A stretch of 64,000 nt of DNA from Bacteroidota bacterium (lineage in GTDB: Bacteria; Bacteroidota; Bacteroidia; B-17B0; Aurantibacillaceae). The notes under the pieces were generated by a model. That model saw nothing but the letters and a program-made list of their open reading frames with translations. It was not told the origin of the DNA and did not search any database. Each line of letters starts with the position of its first letter. Positions within the stretch are counted from its first letter, which is position 1. This document shows, in pieces, positions 5,301 through 64,000 of the stretch. The stretch is taken from positions 62,001 through 126,000 of the forward strand of contig JAUXZS010000020.1 in the NCBI GenBank assembly GCA_030692515.1, written 5' to 3'. Position numbers and translations under genes: made by a program.

Positions 5301-5859
5301 AAGTTACATTTTTTGCCCTTCCAACACAAGCAGCACGTGGTGTAATTAATATAGTTGTTACACCAGTTTGGGTTGCAACAACATCAAATCCTACTCCACC
5401 ATCGGCCAGGGTTGCAGTTAAAATTGTATTAGGAAAAGGTGTGTAAAAATCCGTCCCTTTTGCTCTTTGCCCTTTAAGGCTTATCATTTCTTTGTTAGCG
5501 CCTGAACCAATTGTATAATAAACAGAGATATTTGAATTTGAACTAATATAAATTCCTTTGTTACTAACAGTGTTTGAAGGACTACTTTCTACCGCAGTAA
5601 TTGAAGCTGTTAAATTGCTAACATTTATAGTATTTGCTGGTATTGACAAGGTTAAATTAACACCTGTTGGAATGTTGGCAGGTTGCCTAACATACACCGT
5701 TGCCGCCTGAGAATGGGTTTGAATATGAAGCTCTATAGGAGATTCTCCCATGGTAGCAGATATATCAGGTGCTACAAACCAAAAACTTGTGTCAAGTTGT
5801 GCATTTGATTTTATTATAAAAAGAGAAAAGAAAACAATTAAAAGTATTTTTTTTACCAT
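2359..5859 (-). CDS. IgGFc-binding-like / PKD-domain protein with gliding-motility-type (T9SS type B) C-terminal domain
   Basis: Start placed at MVKKILLIVFFSLF (ATG 5859) rather than the 5919 ORF start; PKD motifs (WQWQMGDGGTSS, WSWDFGNGLTSN); C-term TPNNDGKNDVWRLDF...YNRWGDLLF...WDGTYKESGNPLPVGVYFYTI. Confidence 0.93.
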   Translation of the reverse strand: MVKKILLIVFFSLFIIKSNAQLDTSFWFVAPDISATMGESPIELHIQTHSQAATVYVRQPANIPTGVNLTLSIPANTINVSNLTASITAVESSPSNTVSNKGIYISSNSNISVYYTIGSGANKEMISLKGQRAKGTDFYTPFPNTILTATLADGGVGFDVVATQTGVTTILITPRAACVGRAKNVTFARTLTQGQTFSMKDNNAVNPSELAGSIISADQPIAVTIGGSIRTSTALCPSYFADQITTSSNLGKEHVIMKGSGTSDVAYILATVNSTSLTITTGTGTINWLINTGETYSVNIASLTYIATDKPVYITQVSGYGCKLSGAQVAPAYCAGSYTTAFTRLSSDSLNLNIVTRTGFQNTFTLTSNGSPVAISPASFTTVPGSVGNLVAARIYFPIASIPVGSHNVLKNQNDIFGLGVHNGGTIGGSAYAYASEFGANPFVIASSVPTATICSNTSITLNGQIGGGPINGIWTLNGFGTLSGGPNQIINNIYTPNQIDTSLAITPTPTPPVSGGLVKFVLTSTGICPNKSDTFRVYVKQQPIVTAGTNSIICSNSPTVNLGGNVFGASTQGVWSVQAPGNGTFTPSVNTFSPSYFLSNTDTALNQLKFVLTSTNNGLCNAVSNTVTVLINHAPIVKASSVNPILKCANNSTVFLNGTVSGTTTSTGMWSTTGSGIFVPNQFALLCNYIPSNADILAGNIWLKLVSTNNLQCKAVADSVNVIFTQPVTVSAGVDLNSCKNNPTVPLNVVITGTASTTGIWYGGAGTFTSTNTSLTPTYIATPGETAAGFVILTFSTTNNGICIGVSDQVKIDFRDKPTANFIVNTVCLNNTTVFTDQSVNTSGIGSLNTWQWQMGDGGTSSAVNPIYTYTAAGNYTTQLVVSNTFNCYDTIYRPVTVYALPTASMLISRSCTGSAQLISFTDMSSIPAPASIPATGYYWDFGGFGFSYSKDTSLVFPAEGIYNITHEITSNNGCKSTITQSVNITPRPIAKFLYINNSALSLGANIAFIDSSKSAVSWSWDFGNGLTSNLQNPTTNYLSNGTYTVSLTVTDQFGCTSSYSAIVKISNIAAEITQLIPNMITPNNDGKNDVWRLDFINVFYKTAEINIYNRWGDLLFSSIGYSNAWDGTYKESGNPLPVGVYFYTINLNDPSDTKIYKGTVTILK

Positions 5860-5940
5860 ATGATTCACTATCAATGAAATTAATTTTACGAATATAGTAA
5901 ATAAAATCATAATTTGCATAAATTAACAATAAATTGAGTC

Positions 5941-5948
5941 TAATTTTG
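5941..5948 (+). promoter_or_regulatory. -7 promoter box TAATTTTG upstream of DUF58 gene
   Basis: Matches Bacteroidota -7 consensus TAnnTTTG, 22 nt before ATG 5971. Confidence 0.5.
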
Positions 5949-5970
5949 CCAACATTGTATTACTCAAAAT

Positions 5971-6879
5971 ATGCCAATTAATCGACTAAAAATAGAACCT
6001 TTTAAAAAACTAGAACTTTTTGCAAAAAAAGTGGTGGAAGGCTTTATTACCGGTATGCATAAAAGTCCTTTTCATGGCTTTTCTGTCGAATTTGCCGAGC
6101 ATAGATTATATAATAAAGGCGAAAGTACCAGACATATAGATTGGAAATTATTTGCTCGTTCGGGTAAGTTATTTGTAAAGCGTTATGAGGAAGAAACTAA
6201 CCTTCGCTGTCAAATCGTAATTGATATTTCTGCAAGTATGCAGTTTCCAAAAGATTCCAAAAATAACAAACTAAATTTTAGCATTTATTCGGCTGCTGCA
6301 CTCTGCGAATTGTTAAAACAACAACGAGATGCTTTTGGTTTAACTTTATTTGAAAACGAAATTGTAAAACACTTTGCGCCAAAGGGAAGCCCTTCTCACC
6401 AAAAATTAATTTATAATACGCTTGAAGAAATTTTGGACCAAAATTTTGAGAGCAAAAAAACATCTGCCGCTAAGGCTTTAAATCAAATTGCTGAAATAAT
6501 TCATCAACGTTCCTTAGTAATTATTTTTAGTGATATGTTTGATAATACTTCTGAAAATGAAGAATTATTTTCTGCCCTTCAACATTTAAAATATCGTAAA
6601 CACGAAGTTATTTTATTTCATGTGGTAGATAAATCTAAAGAAATAGATTTTGAGTTTGACAACAAACCTTATCATTTTATTGATTTGGAAAGCGGTGAAG
6701 AAATTAAATTAAACCCAAGCCAAATAAAAGAACAATACCAACAATCAATAAATCAATATAAAGACATGTTGAAATTAAAGTGTGGTCAGTATAAAATAGA
6801 TTTTGTTGAGGCCAACATTAACAAAGGATTTGATAATATTTTATATACCTATCTAGTTAAAAGAAATAAAATGATTTAA
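5971..6879 (+). CDS. DUF58 domain-containing protein
   Basis: GESTRHIDWKLFARSGKLFVKRYEEETN motif and vWA-like DISASM. Confidence 0.92.
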   Translation: MPINRLKIEPFKKLELFAKKVVEGFITGMHKSPFHGFSVEFAEHRLYNKGESTRHIDWKLFARSGKLFVKRYEEETNLRCQIVIDISASMQFPKDSKNNKLNFSIYSAAALCELLKQQRDAFGLTLFENEIVKHFAPKGSPSHQKLIYNTLEEILDQNFESKKTSAAKALNQIAEIIHQRSLVIIFSDMFDNTSENEELFSALQHLKYRKHEVILFHVVDKSKEIDFEFDNKPYHFIDLESGEEIKLNPSQIKEQYQQSINQYKDMLKLKCGQYKIDFVEANINKGFDNILYTYLVKRNKMI

Positions 6880-6901
6880 TTTGGGGAAAATTTATTAGGG
6901 T

Positions 6902-8014
6902 ATGAGTGATCAAAATTTTGAAACAACTGCAGAAACTGCAAACACTATTAAATGTAAAAATTGTGGTGCCAATTTAAAATTTGCTGCCGGAACACAGCAT
7001 TTAAATTGTACTTATTGTAATGCCGACAATGAAATAGTGGTAGAAAAAACAGAGCTAATAGAAAATGATTACAATGCCTTTTTAGATAGTACTATTTCAA
7101 CATCAGAAAAACAAACAATATCCACATTAAAGTGTGATTGTTGCGGCTCCTCTACTACCCTTCCAGAAAATGTTACGTCTAGTAGTTGCCCATATTGCGA
7201 CACACCACTGATTATTAAAAATGGATCTACATGCAATTTAGTAAAACCAAAATATTTATTGCCTTTTAAAATTGAACGCAAAAAAGCAAAAGAAGAGTTT
7301 GTAAAATGGGTTGGTGGTTTATGGTTTGCTCCTAATAAATTAAAAGATTACGCAAACAATAGTCTCGAAAAATTAAAAGGTATTTATATGCCCTACTGGA
7401 CTTACGACACAAACACCTATAGCAGTTATTCTGGTATGCGTGGTGTGTATTATTATGTAACAGAAACCTATCGCGACAGCCAAGGTAAAACGCAAACACG
7501 TCAGGTTCGTCACACAAATTGGTATCCGGCAAGTGGTTCGGTAAATAATTCTTTTGATGATATTTTAGTTTGTGCTTCTAATTCATTACCAAAAAAATTA
7601 GTTCAAGATTTAGAACCATGGGATCTACCAGAATTAGTAAGCTATAACGATCAATTTCTAGCAGGATTTGTAACCGAAAGTTATCAAACTGAACTAAAAC
7701 CAGGCTTTGAAGAGGCTAAGGAAAGAATGCTCCCAATTATCCAAAGCTCAGTAAGGTCAGATATTGGCGGAGATACGCAACAAATTACATCAATTAGTAC
7801 AGAATATAACGATATCTCATTTAAGCATATTTTATTGCCTCTTTGGATTAGTGCTTATAAATTTAATGAAAAAGTGTATCGTTTTACTATCAATGCTAGA
7901 ACAGGGGAAGTACAAGGCGAAAGACCATATAGCGGATGGAAAATTTTCTTTTTTAGCGTTGCTGTTGTAGCAATAATTGGTACAATTATTTATTTTGTCA
8001 AAAATAAAAACTAA
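6902..8014 (+). CDS. Zinc-ribbon protein with C-terminal transmembrane helix
   Basis: Zinc-ribbon pairs CKNCGANLKF...CTYC and CDCCGSS...CPYC; single C-terminal TM helix. Confidence 0.85.
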   Translation: MSDQNFETTAETANTIKCKNCGANLKFAAGTQHLNCTYCNADNEIVVEKTELIENDYNAFLDSTISTSEKQTISTLKCDCCGSSTTLPENVTSSSCPYCDTPLIIKNGSTCNLVKPKYLLPFKIERKKAKEEFVKWVGGLWFAPNKLKDYANNSLEKLKGIYMPYWTYDTNTYSSYSGMRGVYYYVTETYRDSQGKTQTRQVRHTNWYPASGSVNNSFDDILVCASNSLPKKLVQDLEPWDLPELVSYNDQFLAGFVTESYQTELKPGFEEAKERMLPIIQSSVRSDIGGDTQQITSISTEYNDISFKHILLPLWISAYKFNEKVYRFTINARTGEVQGERPYSGWKIFFFSVAVVAIIGTIIYFVKNKN

Positions 8015-8079
8015 GCATTTTAAACTATTTTTTTAGAATTAAACCTTTCGAATAAATAAGAGTCTAAATTGAAATAAGT

Positions 8080-9168
8080 ATGACTCCGAAAATTTTAATT
8101 TTAGCTGATATTAATTCAACTCACACCCAAAAATGGGTATTGGGCCTTTCAAATGATAATTTTAAAATTGGAATTTTCTCTTTTAATGCTTCAGAATCTA
8201 ATTGGTTTAAAGACAAAAAAAACATTATTTGTTTAAATAAAAAAGAAAAGAAATCTAAATTAAATTTATTAAACAAATTAGCTTATCTTCTTTTTTGGCC
8301 CAGATTAATTTACCAAATTTTTAAATTTAAACCAGATGTAATTCACTCACATTATGCCTCAAGTTATGGTTTATTAGGAGCGCTTACTTTTTTTAAACCA
8401 TTTATTGTTTCTGCATGGGGCAGCGATTTAATGGAGTTTCCAACTAAAAACTGGTTAAATAAACTAATGATAAAATTTGTATTGTATAGAGCGGATGAAA
8501 TATGTGTTACATCAAGCGTATTGCAAAAAGAAATTTCATTATACACAAAAAAACAATCCAAAATAATACCATTCGGCATTAATTTAAATTTGTTTTATTC
8601 AAACAGGTTGAGAAATAATATTGAATTTATTTTTGGCTGCGTTAAAAATTTAGAGCCTATTTATAATATAGATAAAACAGTTCTTGCATTTAGTCTCCTT
8701 TTAAAAAAATACCCACATTTAAATTTAAAGCTAAAAATTATAGGCCATGGAAGTCAAAAAAATGAACTTATAAACTTAATGAATCAGTGCGGAATACAAA
8801 ATAACATAAAATTTATAGGCGCAGTTCCACATGATCAAATACCTTATTATCTAAATAGGCTAGATGTATTTATTAATGTTTCTGAAATTGAAAGTTTTGG
8901 CGTTAGTATTGCTGAAGCAATGGCTTGCAAAATTCCAGTAATCGTAAGTAATTTAGAAGGTTTTAAAGATCTTGTACCTGATGAGTCAGTCGGTTTAATT
9001 ACTGCTTCAACATCACCAGAAGATATTTTTATTGCAATGGAAAAAACATTACTAAATAGCGAGTTAAGAATGCAAATTTCAAAAAACGCTTATCAACGAA
9101 TTATAGAAAAATTTAATTGGAGTCAGAATCTAAATCAAATGGAAGATTTATATTTTGAATTAGCTTAA
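8080..9168 (+). CDS. Glycosyltransferase family 4
   Basis: HSHYASSYGLLGAL, GSDLMEFP, IESFGVSIAEAMACKIPVIVS. Confidence 0.92.
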   Translation: MTPKILILADINSTHTQKWVLGLSNDNFKIGIFSFNASESNWFKDKKNIICLNKKEKKSKLNLLNKLAYLLFWPRLIYQIFKFKPDVIHSHYASSYGLLGALTFFKPFIVSAWGSDLMEFPTKNWLNKLMIKFVLYRADEICVTSSVLQKEISLYTKKQSKIIPFGINLNLFYSNRLRNNIEFIFGCVKNLEPIYNIDKTVLAFSLLLKKYPHLNLKLKIIGHGSQKNELINLMNQCGIQNNIKFIGAVPHDQIPYYLNRLDVFINVSEIESFGVSIAEAMACKIPVIVSNLEGFKDLVPDESVGLITASTSPEDIFIAMEKTLLNSELRMQISKNAYQRIIEKFNWSQNLNQMEDLYFELA

Positions 9169-51107: not shown

Positions 51108-52403
51108 TTATTTTTTAGCTATCTCAATAAATTCAATATAAAACTTTTTCATATCCTCATTAAAAGTATCGTTATGAAAAACAGATATTAATTGACCATT
51201 ATATTTTTTCACTTCATTTATAATTGGTAAAGCTAAATCCATTAGCGTTTTATTTTCTTTTAAAGAAAAATATTTTAAAGTACTTTCTGCAACACAAAAA
51301 GAATTAATAGTTAATGGCGTTAATAATTCGTTTTCTAAATTATACCAATTAAAAGGATAACAATAAGATGCCCTGAAACCGTTGTAATTAGTATAACCCA
51401 TCGAAAAATCTTCTTCTATTCCCGCCTTTAATAAATTATGATAGGTTTGAGGGAATTTTAACATCGAAAAATGTTGTCTGTTATAAATCACCGGTGAATG
51501 AATAATATTTGCAAGGCGGCTTATTTCTATTTTTAATTGTTGGGCTTTACTGTTTGAACCATAAGAAGGATGAATGCCAACCGATGAGTAATCGGCAATA
51601 TTTTTCATTAAAGCTTGGAAATTAAGATTTGTAGCTGCTTGATTTTTATCATTAGGACCATAATCACCCAATAAAAAAAAATAAATGGCCTTAATGTTTT
51701 GTTTTTTATGTACGTCAATTAAGAAAGCGTAGCAATCGTAGGGATCCTTCTTTTGTCCAACAATAACTAAAAATCTTTCTTTAAAACTCTTTAAATTTTT
51801 AGTAATTACATCGTGTAAATACCCAGCAATAGCTCTAACCACACCTTTATGCTTGTACTTAAACGCATTATCTACGTCAATAGTAGATATAAAACTATAC
51901 TGATGTTCCTTAAATTTTAAATTAGGATATAACTCATTTAAACAAAGCTGTAATTTATTGATCCATAAATTAATTAACGGCGTATCAATAAAATCATATT
52001 GATAGGCCAAACTGGATTTATAGTTAAAGCGATTATGTTTATCTGTTTTAAAAGGTAAATACTCTTCAAAACGAGTTAACAACCAAAAAGAAGCCCCAAA
52101 TAAATCAAAAGGTATTGTTGTATTGTGCCCTTTAAAGAATATTTTCTGAAATACTTCATGATTACTTACTTCTATTGGATAATCTTTTATACCGACATCA
52201 AATAAAATAGGATGAGGTTTAATAGACAAACAATTTTCAACTTTTACATCAGAATAATTAATTTTTGGTAATGAAGAATTAATAAATTCTTCAAGATTAA
52301 TTGTTAATAATACATCTAAACCCAAAGCATCACTTAATAATGTTTTTAAAACATAATGCAGTCGATTGCTTTTTTTAGCCGAGTATACAATAATAGAATT
52401 GAT
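51108..52403 (-). CDS. Polysaccharide deacetylase-family protein; N-terminus extends upstream of tracked start, start codon non-canonical or unclear
   Basis: FISTIDVDNAFKYKHKG, KAIYFFLLGDYG, VGIHPSYGS; in-frame upstream INSIIVYSAKKSNRLHYVLKTLLSDALGL. Confidence 0.75.
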   Translation of the reverse strand: MNSIIVYSAKKSNRLHYVLKTLLSDALGLDVLLTINLEEFINSSLPKINYSDVKVENCLSIKPHPILFDVGIKDYPIEVSNHEVFQKIFFKGHNTTIPFDLFGASFWLLTRFEEYLPFKTDKHNRFNYKSSLAYQYDFIDTPLINLWINKLQLCLNELYPNLKFKEHQYSFISTIDVDNAFKYKHKGVVRAIAGYLHDVITKNLKSFKERFLVIVGQKKDPYDCYAFLIDVHKKQNIKAIYFFLLGDYGPNDKNQAATNLNFQALMKNIADYSSVGIHPSYGSNSKAQQLKIEISRLANIIHSPVIYNRQHFSMLKFPQTYHNLLKAGIEEDFSMGYTNYNGFRASYCYPFNWYNLENELLTPLTINSFCVAESTLKYFSLKENKTLMDLALPIINEVKKYNGQLISVFHNDTFNEDMKKFYIEFIEIAKK

Positions 52404-52470
52404 TCGTCTAATTTAGATAGGCTACCTTAAAATCCTTTAACTAAGATAAAAAGTTATTGAACGAGCACTG

Positions 52471-63099: not shown

Positions 63100-63241
63100 A
63101 ATTCTTTTTTAGAGTTAAAATTTTAAGATTAATCAAATTAACTAATTCCGCTTTAAATATACAAAACATATATTGGCAAACAACTTAATATCATTTAACA
63201 AAAAACAATAGATTCTTAATTTATTTTCAAGAATTTCTTGC

Positions 63242-63249
63242 TACTTTTG
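63242..63249 (+). promoter_or_regulatory. -7 box TACTTTTG upstream of HYC_CC_PP gene
   Basis: TACTTTTG gtat ATA GCA ACT. Confidence 0.55.
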
Positions 63250-63253
63250 GTAT

Positions 63254-63658
63254 ATAGCAACTTTTAAAAAATATTTGTTTGGATTAATTGTAACATCCTA
63301 TGTTATTTCATCGGTTGGCATTCCTATCTATTTACATTATTGTGGCGGCGAACTTGAAAACATTAATTATGTTATTAAGGGAAGCACTTGCTGCGGAGAA
63401 GAAGAAGATTCTGAAATGATGAATGACGATTGTTGCAAGGATGAAAACCTCATTGTAAAAAATAGCCCTGATTTTACTTTAAAACAACTTAATAATTATA
63501 CGCTTGTAAAATCATTTTGCCAAGTATTTTATACAGCAGCACCCTTTTTTGAGTATAATTTTAAATCAAACAGTGACTTCAATTTACAATCCATTGAAGC
63601 CCCTCCGCCAAAACTACAAGCTAGTTTAGTAATTTCTACTTCTGTTTTAAGAATTTAA
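63254..63658 (+). CDS. HYC_CC_PP-family protein, predicted ATA start (track uses internal TTG 63275)
   Basis: (I)ATFKKYLFGLIVTSYVISSVGIPIYLHYCGGELE...STCCGEEE...DDCC...EAPPPKLQ: HYC, CC and PP motifs. Confidence 0.75.
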   Translation: MATFKKYLFGLIVTSYVISSVGIPIYLHYCGGELENINYVIKGSTCCGEEEDSEMMNDDCCKDENLIVKNSPDFTLKQLNNYTLVKSFCQVFYTAAPFFEYNFKSNSDFNLQSIEAPPPKLQASLVISTSVLRI

Positions 63659-63746: not shown

Positions 63747-64000
63747 ATGAAAGCTATTATTTTATTTATATCACTATTTTTCGCCATAAATCTTAATGCA
63801 CAAGATAAAAGCGTAACAACAGCAACTATATCCGTAAGAGGAAATTGCGAGGAATGTAAAACCAGAATTGAAAATGCCGCAGATATTAAAGGCGTAAAAT
63901 TGGCTGTTTGGGACGAAACAACGCAAGCTTTAACTGTAACCTATAAAACCGATAAAATTACGCTTGAACAAATAGAAAAAGCTATTGCAGCTAGTGGACA
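63747..64000 (+). CDS. Heavy-metal-associated (HMA) domain protein, truncated by window end
   Basis: MKAIILFISLFFAINLNAQDKSVTTATISVRGNCEECKTRIENAADIKGVKLAVWDETTQALTVTYKTDKITLEQIEKAIAASG; CxxC variant CEEC. Confidence 0.85.
   Translation, partial: MKAIILFISLFFAINLNAQDKSVTTATISVRGNCEECKTRIENAADIKGVKLAVWDETTQALTVTYKTDKITLEQIEKAIAASG

Follow-up and report, generated by a model that had tools for sequence, protein, structure and literature searches.

The HYC_CC_PP gene near the end of the window, the whole 64,000-nucleotide stretch of DNA analysed here, raises the question of where its translation begins and on which codon. In the window sequence, TACTTTTG occupies positions 63242-63249, GTAT follows at 63250-63253 and ATA at 63254-63256. 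The frame opened at 63254 reads ATA GCA ACT TTT AAA AAA TAT TTG (63275) TTT GGA and runs to a stop codon that ends at 63658. This gene (63254..63658, plus strand, stop included) encodes a product of 134 amino acids when read from the ATA, with a signal-peptide-like N-terminus that carries KK at codons 5-6. The ATA-started product matches the NCBIfam family NF047658 (HYC_CC_PP) with 46.4 bits (E=5e-12) relative to a curated cut-off of 28 bits, and the HYC, CC and PP motifs are all visible. Weak PDB matches to trypsins were discarded as chance HYCGG/HFCGG likeness. From the upstream stop to the HYC core, the window sequence contains no in-frame ATG or GTG, as the initial annotation had stated, and its placement of the ATA exactly 4 nt after TACTTTTG is likewise correct. 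The sole canonical in-frame candidate upstream of the HYC core in this genome is the TTG at 63275..63277 (plus strand), which is the start that a gene caller would pick.

Conservation of the start codon among orthologues

The genus of the window comprises uncultivated Bacteroidota, with 40 species in the comparison set, and the near relatives of the window are metagenome-assembled genomes. Searches of the genus and family returned 85 distinct HYC_CC_PP family sequences, orthologues and paralogues together, among which the orthologue clade consists of 27 sequences (21 from genus g1 and six from g7). Counting back 27 residues from the H of HYC, the codon is AUH (AUA, AUC or AUU) in 26 of the 27 orthologues, namely 20 of 21 in g1 and all six in g7, and is written as ATC in 16, ATT in six and ATA in four. 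The initial annotation had left room for an ATG at this position in close relatives, but none of the 27 orthologues has one and ATC or ATT is carried there instead. In 20 of the 27 there is no ATG, GTG or TTG at least 20 codons before the HYC motif, and the 26 AUH orthologues share a conserved AUH start without a usable canonical one. On this comparison the ATA, which the initial annotation had proposed as the start, is the window species' version of a clade-wide AUH start whose commonest form is AUC, and AUH initiation at HYC_CC_PP is near certain.

The only orthologue without AUH at the aligned codon is L018, which has TTG there. This locus also carries an ATC six codons upstream, 3 nt after AAATTTG, and may have shifted its start. 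Paralogues in the same genomes begin with ATG, GTG or TTG at 24 residues before the motif, and relatives from genus g10 begin mostly with TTG at 28 residues before it. Because both groups have canonical starts, the absence of one is specific to the orthologue clade. The g10 loci (L050-L053 and L092-L104) have a -7-like box about 18-20 nt upstream of their mostly TTG starts, and weak start codons seem to be common in the HYC_CC_PP family.

Evolution of the codon was followed on a tree of 58 sequences that was built with the start codon left out. The AUH or canonical label requires four changes on this tree, and AUH codons have changed at their third base at least eight times, always among A, C and T and never to G. 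This avoidance of G is suggestive, though not decisive by itself given the number of changes on which it rests. Among eight close species, the first two bases of the start codon are invariant, while the third base has a divergence of 0.46 and varies as freely as synonymous sites, the third positions of the gene diverging by 0.38-0.48.

Two readings would place initiation elsewhere than at the AUH codon. The TTG at 63275, which would give MFGLIVTSY..., has in its favor that this genome offers no other canonical in-frame codon before HYC. The initial annotation had already doubted it, and the relatives contradict it: most orthologues have TTA, TTC, TTT or ATT at this position, only three of those with AUH share the TTG, and most relatives would then be left without any start. 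The KKY that precedes it is conserved in relatives and would be lost along with the basic N-region. Since KKY is conserved and most relatives have TTA, TTC or TTT, a start at 63275 is unsupported and is considered highly improbable. Barely credible, and the weakest of the readings weighed here, is a frameshift from an upstream out-of-frame canonical start or readthrough of the stop from an upstream in-frame one. An ATG does lie 38-50 nt upstream in another frame in L004, L005, L007, L008 and L010, but these frames close at differing and mostly early places with no common frame or stop, do not occur in the window or in most g7 species, and start from ATGs that lie upstream of the -7 box. As for the in-frame variant, ten species have an in-frame stop 0-1 codon upstream of the ATH, with the stop TAG directly adjoining ATC in L006 and one non-start codon intervening in the nine others. 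These stops block any upstream canonical start and so rule out a longer in-frame protein in the ten species. A sequencing error at 63256 is also unnecessary as an explanation, because relatives have ATC or ATT.

The promoter box and the expected 5' end of the mRNA

The box TACTTTTG (63242..63249, plus strand) has the form of the Bacteroidota -7 promoter box, TAnnTTTG. It stands exactly 4 nt before the ATH in 19 of the 26 AUH orthologues, a count by inspection that includes seven lacking only the first T of TAnnTTTG. Divergence of the box among the eight close species is 0.17, compared with 0.46 and 0.39 in its flanks. The box is named for its position at -7 in B. fragilis and F. johnsoniae, as quoted in PMC7366714. 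With a box at -7 that lies 4 nt from the AUH, the 5' end of the transcript should therefore coincide with the A of the AUH codon or be adjacent to it. No Shine-Dalgarno sequence precedes this codon in the window or in the orthologues, and the window shows no evident -33 TTG element before the box. Within this genome, 16 genes have a conserved canonical start with TAnnTTTG within 60 nt, and 4 nt is the commonest spacer among them (four of 16), which agrees with the initial annotation's remark that the spacing equals that of leaderless ATG and GTG genes. From the position of a conserved promoter box at fixed spacing, the HYC_CC_PP mRNA appears to be leaderless, as had been suggested. For B. thetaiotaomicron, 5' UTRs of fewer than 10 nt make up only about 3.7% of the total (PMC7366714). 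Five AUH orthologues (L014, L019, L020, L081 and L082) have no box at 3-5 nt, and the mRNA in these is therefore probably leadered.

Further upstream, a TTTAACAAAAA motif at 63194..63204 (plus strand), about 50-60 nt before the AUH start, is conserved between g1 and g7 and is found at the same distance in L004-L010, L040, L083, L084 and L086. It is a possible regulator site. In several species the interval from TTTAACAAAAA to the -7 box contains a short inverted repeat, such as AAAGCAA..TTGCTTT in L007.

HYC_CC_PP is the first gene of its operon. The next gene, which encodes an HMA-domain protein (63747..64000, plus strand, running past the window), has a normal ATG wherever it could be read in the orthologue clade and the clade's neighbors (27 of 27 loci). 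A TonB-dependent receptor follows the HMA gene outside the window, as seen in L130, where positions 5748-8347 correspond to the window from 63747 onwards. With these two partners downstream the operon resembles a unit for the uptake or handling of metal, which suggests a function of this kind for HYC_CC_PP.

A second AUH gene, infC and the extent of AUH use

The same window contains a second gene with a box, 4 nt and AUH, which the initial annotation had not included. The gene for a DUF7033 protein (51108..52403, minus strand) has no canonical start and begins with ATC AAT at 52403. The aligned codon is AUH in 26 of 30 genus orthologues, being ATC in 19, ATT in five and ATA in two. A -7-like box, TAAATTAG (52408..52415, minus strand), stands 4 nt before the AUC start, and TAnnTTnG is located exactly 12 nt upstream of the start in 23 of the 30 species. 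The DUF7033 box mostly ends in TTAG rather than TTTG, and the design is otherwise that of HYC_CC_PP. TAA forms the first three bases of the box at most DUF7033 loci, and the box there itself provides an in-frame stop, four codons upstream of the start.

Use of AUH is not relaxed across the genome. Stop-to-stop frames from 710 kb of this genome were compared with those of about 1.2 Mb of G014, yielding 102 non-overlapping reciprocal-best pairs, and in only two of these, HYC_CC_PP and DUF7033, does a well-conserved protein clearly begin upstream of every canonical codon. The other candidates were rejected, either because both partners share a canonical start only a few codons downstream or because the frame is short and antisense. 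The pattern TANNTTTG-N4-ATH-AAY is not enriched genome-wide (44 occurrences relative to 36 in the control), and the class of such genes is therefore small. An order-level search found no family besides the window's own.

The infC genes of the same genus serve as a positive control. At the 28 loci with a placeable start (within L166-L194, the own-genome copy being G000:C44:1272-1475, minus strand), infC has no usable ATG, GTG or TTG, its first codon being ATC or ATT. Ribosomes of this genus thus evidently do initiate on AUH. The strong Shine-Dalgarno sequence of infC is GCGGAGG or ACGGAGG, located 5-6 nt before the AUH. As read from these loci, AUH starts with and without a Shine-Dalgarno sequence coexist in the same genomes. 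Only ordinary CAU tRNAs were present among the 30 tRNA loci examined, and a special initiator tRNA was rejected as an explanation.

These comparisons bear on two further readings, both of which retain the AUH start. One of them proposes a short-leader mRNA that originates from a promoter further upstream, with TACTTTTG as an incidental or minor promoter. The missing -33 element and the five orthologues without a box at 3-5 nt speak for it, and four of the five (L014, L019, L081 and L082) have TTTG about 17-19 nt upstream of the start. The box is nevertheless kept at exactly 4 nt while its flanks have diverged, is found at the identical fixed position in DUF7033 and has the short spacer that is also commonest in ordinary genes, and HYC_CC_PP has no Shine-Dalgarno sequence whereas the AUH-started infC of the same genus has GGAGG. 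A short leader is accordingly judged to be quite unlikely. According to the other reading, which is given slightly more weight but is still considered unlikely, what keeps the AUH start is an overlapping DNA operator, which in some species takes the form of a TTGATATATCAA palindrome, or else a tolerance of weak starts, rather than selection for weak or regulated initiation. A perfect palindrome does span the box and start in L004, L005 and L007, the avoidance of G at the third base rests on only about eight changes, and TTG, which is also weak, dominates in genus g10. Against this reading, the palindrome is not retained in the window or most orthologues while AUH is, and DUF7033 has AUH without a palindrome. 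Purifying selection is described as normally favoring AUG (PMC5622118), which also counts against it.

Proposed mechanism and relation to known systems

The reading preferred over these combines a TAnnTTTG promoter, a transcript whose 5' end is at or near codon 1, an AUH start and a low rate of synthesis set by that codon, and this combination is regarded as likely to be correct. The AUH start and its conservation are established by the comparison of orthologues. From the promoter position, transcription would begin at codon 1 or a few nucleotides from it, so that translation of HYC_CC_PP, and of its orthologues from 26 species, appears to begin right at the 5' terminus of the mRNA on AUA, AUC or AUU, a mode of initiation that textbooks treat as scarcely workable. 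Codon 1 is AUA in the window and AUC or AUU in most relatives, and the initiator tRNA would pair with its first two bases, with the third mismatched and no Shine-Dalgarno sequence to assist. The likely outcome would be a deliberately low synthesis of HYC_CC_PP relative to the downstream HMA protein, whose gene retains its own AUG, and to the TonB receptor. The yield should also vary with the state of IF3, IF2 and the initiator tRNA. IF3 discriminates against AUU, AUC and AUA and antagonizes leaderless mRNAs (PMC4611024, PMC9031893), and because both effects would apply here HYC_CC_PP would be expected to respond to IF3 on two counts. Both this response and the low expression are inferred from the scheme.

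Conserved AUH starts are best known from infC, which encodes IF3 and is autoregulated by IF3 through an AUU, AUC or AUA start (AUU in E. coli, ATC in Streptomyces and AUA in S. aureus). HYC_CC_PP resembles infC in having AUH conserved over many species with no canonical in-frame start. It differs in that infC of this genus has GGAGG 5-6 nt before the AUH while HYC_CC_PP has none and appears leaderless, and the autoregulation belongs to infC and is not implied for HYC_CC_PP. Outside infC, conserved AUH starts have been known since 2026 from S. aureus cvfC1 (AUU) and ccpN (AUA) (PMC13009471), and the same source cites a conserved AUU start for E. coli pcnB. Like HYC_CC_PP, cvfC1 encodes a small protein, is first in its operon and has an AUH start. 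The S. aureus AUH sites all have extended Shine-Dalgarno motifs (PMC13009471), whereas HYC_CC_PP has none. Known conserved AUH starts are mostly led by a Shine-Dalgarno sequence, whereas those of HYC_CC_PP and DUF7033 appear to be leaderless.

A further parallel is Streptomyces sigR, whose conserved GTC start, repressed by IF3, keeps this leading operon gene at a lower level than its partner (PMC5472188). Both cases involve a first operon gene, a non-canonical start conserved over a genus and a normally expressed partner, and in both the start would act like a setter of stoichiometry. The sigR start is GTC rather than AUH and has a strong conserved ribosome-binding site, and its control by IF3 has been demonstrated by experiment, whereas that of HYC_CC_PP is a prediction.

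Leaderless mRNAs are initiated by 70S ribosomes at a 5'-terminal start codon. HYC_CC_PP would resemble them in having its start codon at the expected 5' end without a Shine-Dalgarno sequence, and sensitivity to IF3 would be shared. It differs in having AUH in place of the start codons of known leaderless mRNAs, which are AUG, or GUG in actinobacteria (PMC9031893). In E. coli, leaderless mRNAs need AUG, and GUG, UUG and CUG all failed to substitute for it (PMC4611024). A search of the literature, which was not exhaustive, found no description of AUH on a leaderless mRNA.

HYC_CC_PP and, so far, DUF7033 may represent a small class of Bacteroidota genes with a -7 box, 4 nt and AUH (mostly AUH-AAY), whose leaderless mRNAs would be initiated at AUC, AUU or AUA under the control of IF3, IF2 and the initiator tRNA. 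Such a class would be a leaderless counterpart of the infC switch, a proposal that is plausible but tentative. Gene callers ignore AUH and mis-start or miss such genes, and HYC_CC_PP would lose the N-region of its signal peptide in this way. If the class is real, it conflicts with the rule by which a leaderless mRNA must begin with AUG. According to reviews, leaderless mRNAs require a 5'-terminal AUG, and IF3 discriminates against AUU, AUC and AUA. Two gene families that retain AUH directly behind a promoter box over many species, together with an AUH-started infC led by a Shine-Dalgarno sequence in the same genomes, would provide a natural test of both rules.
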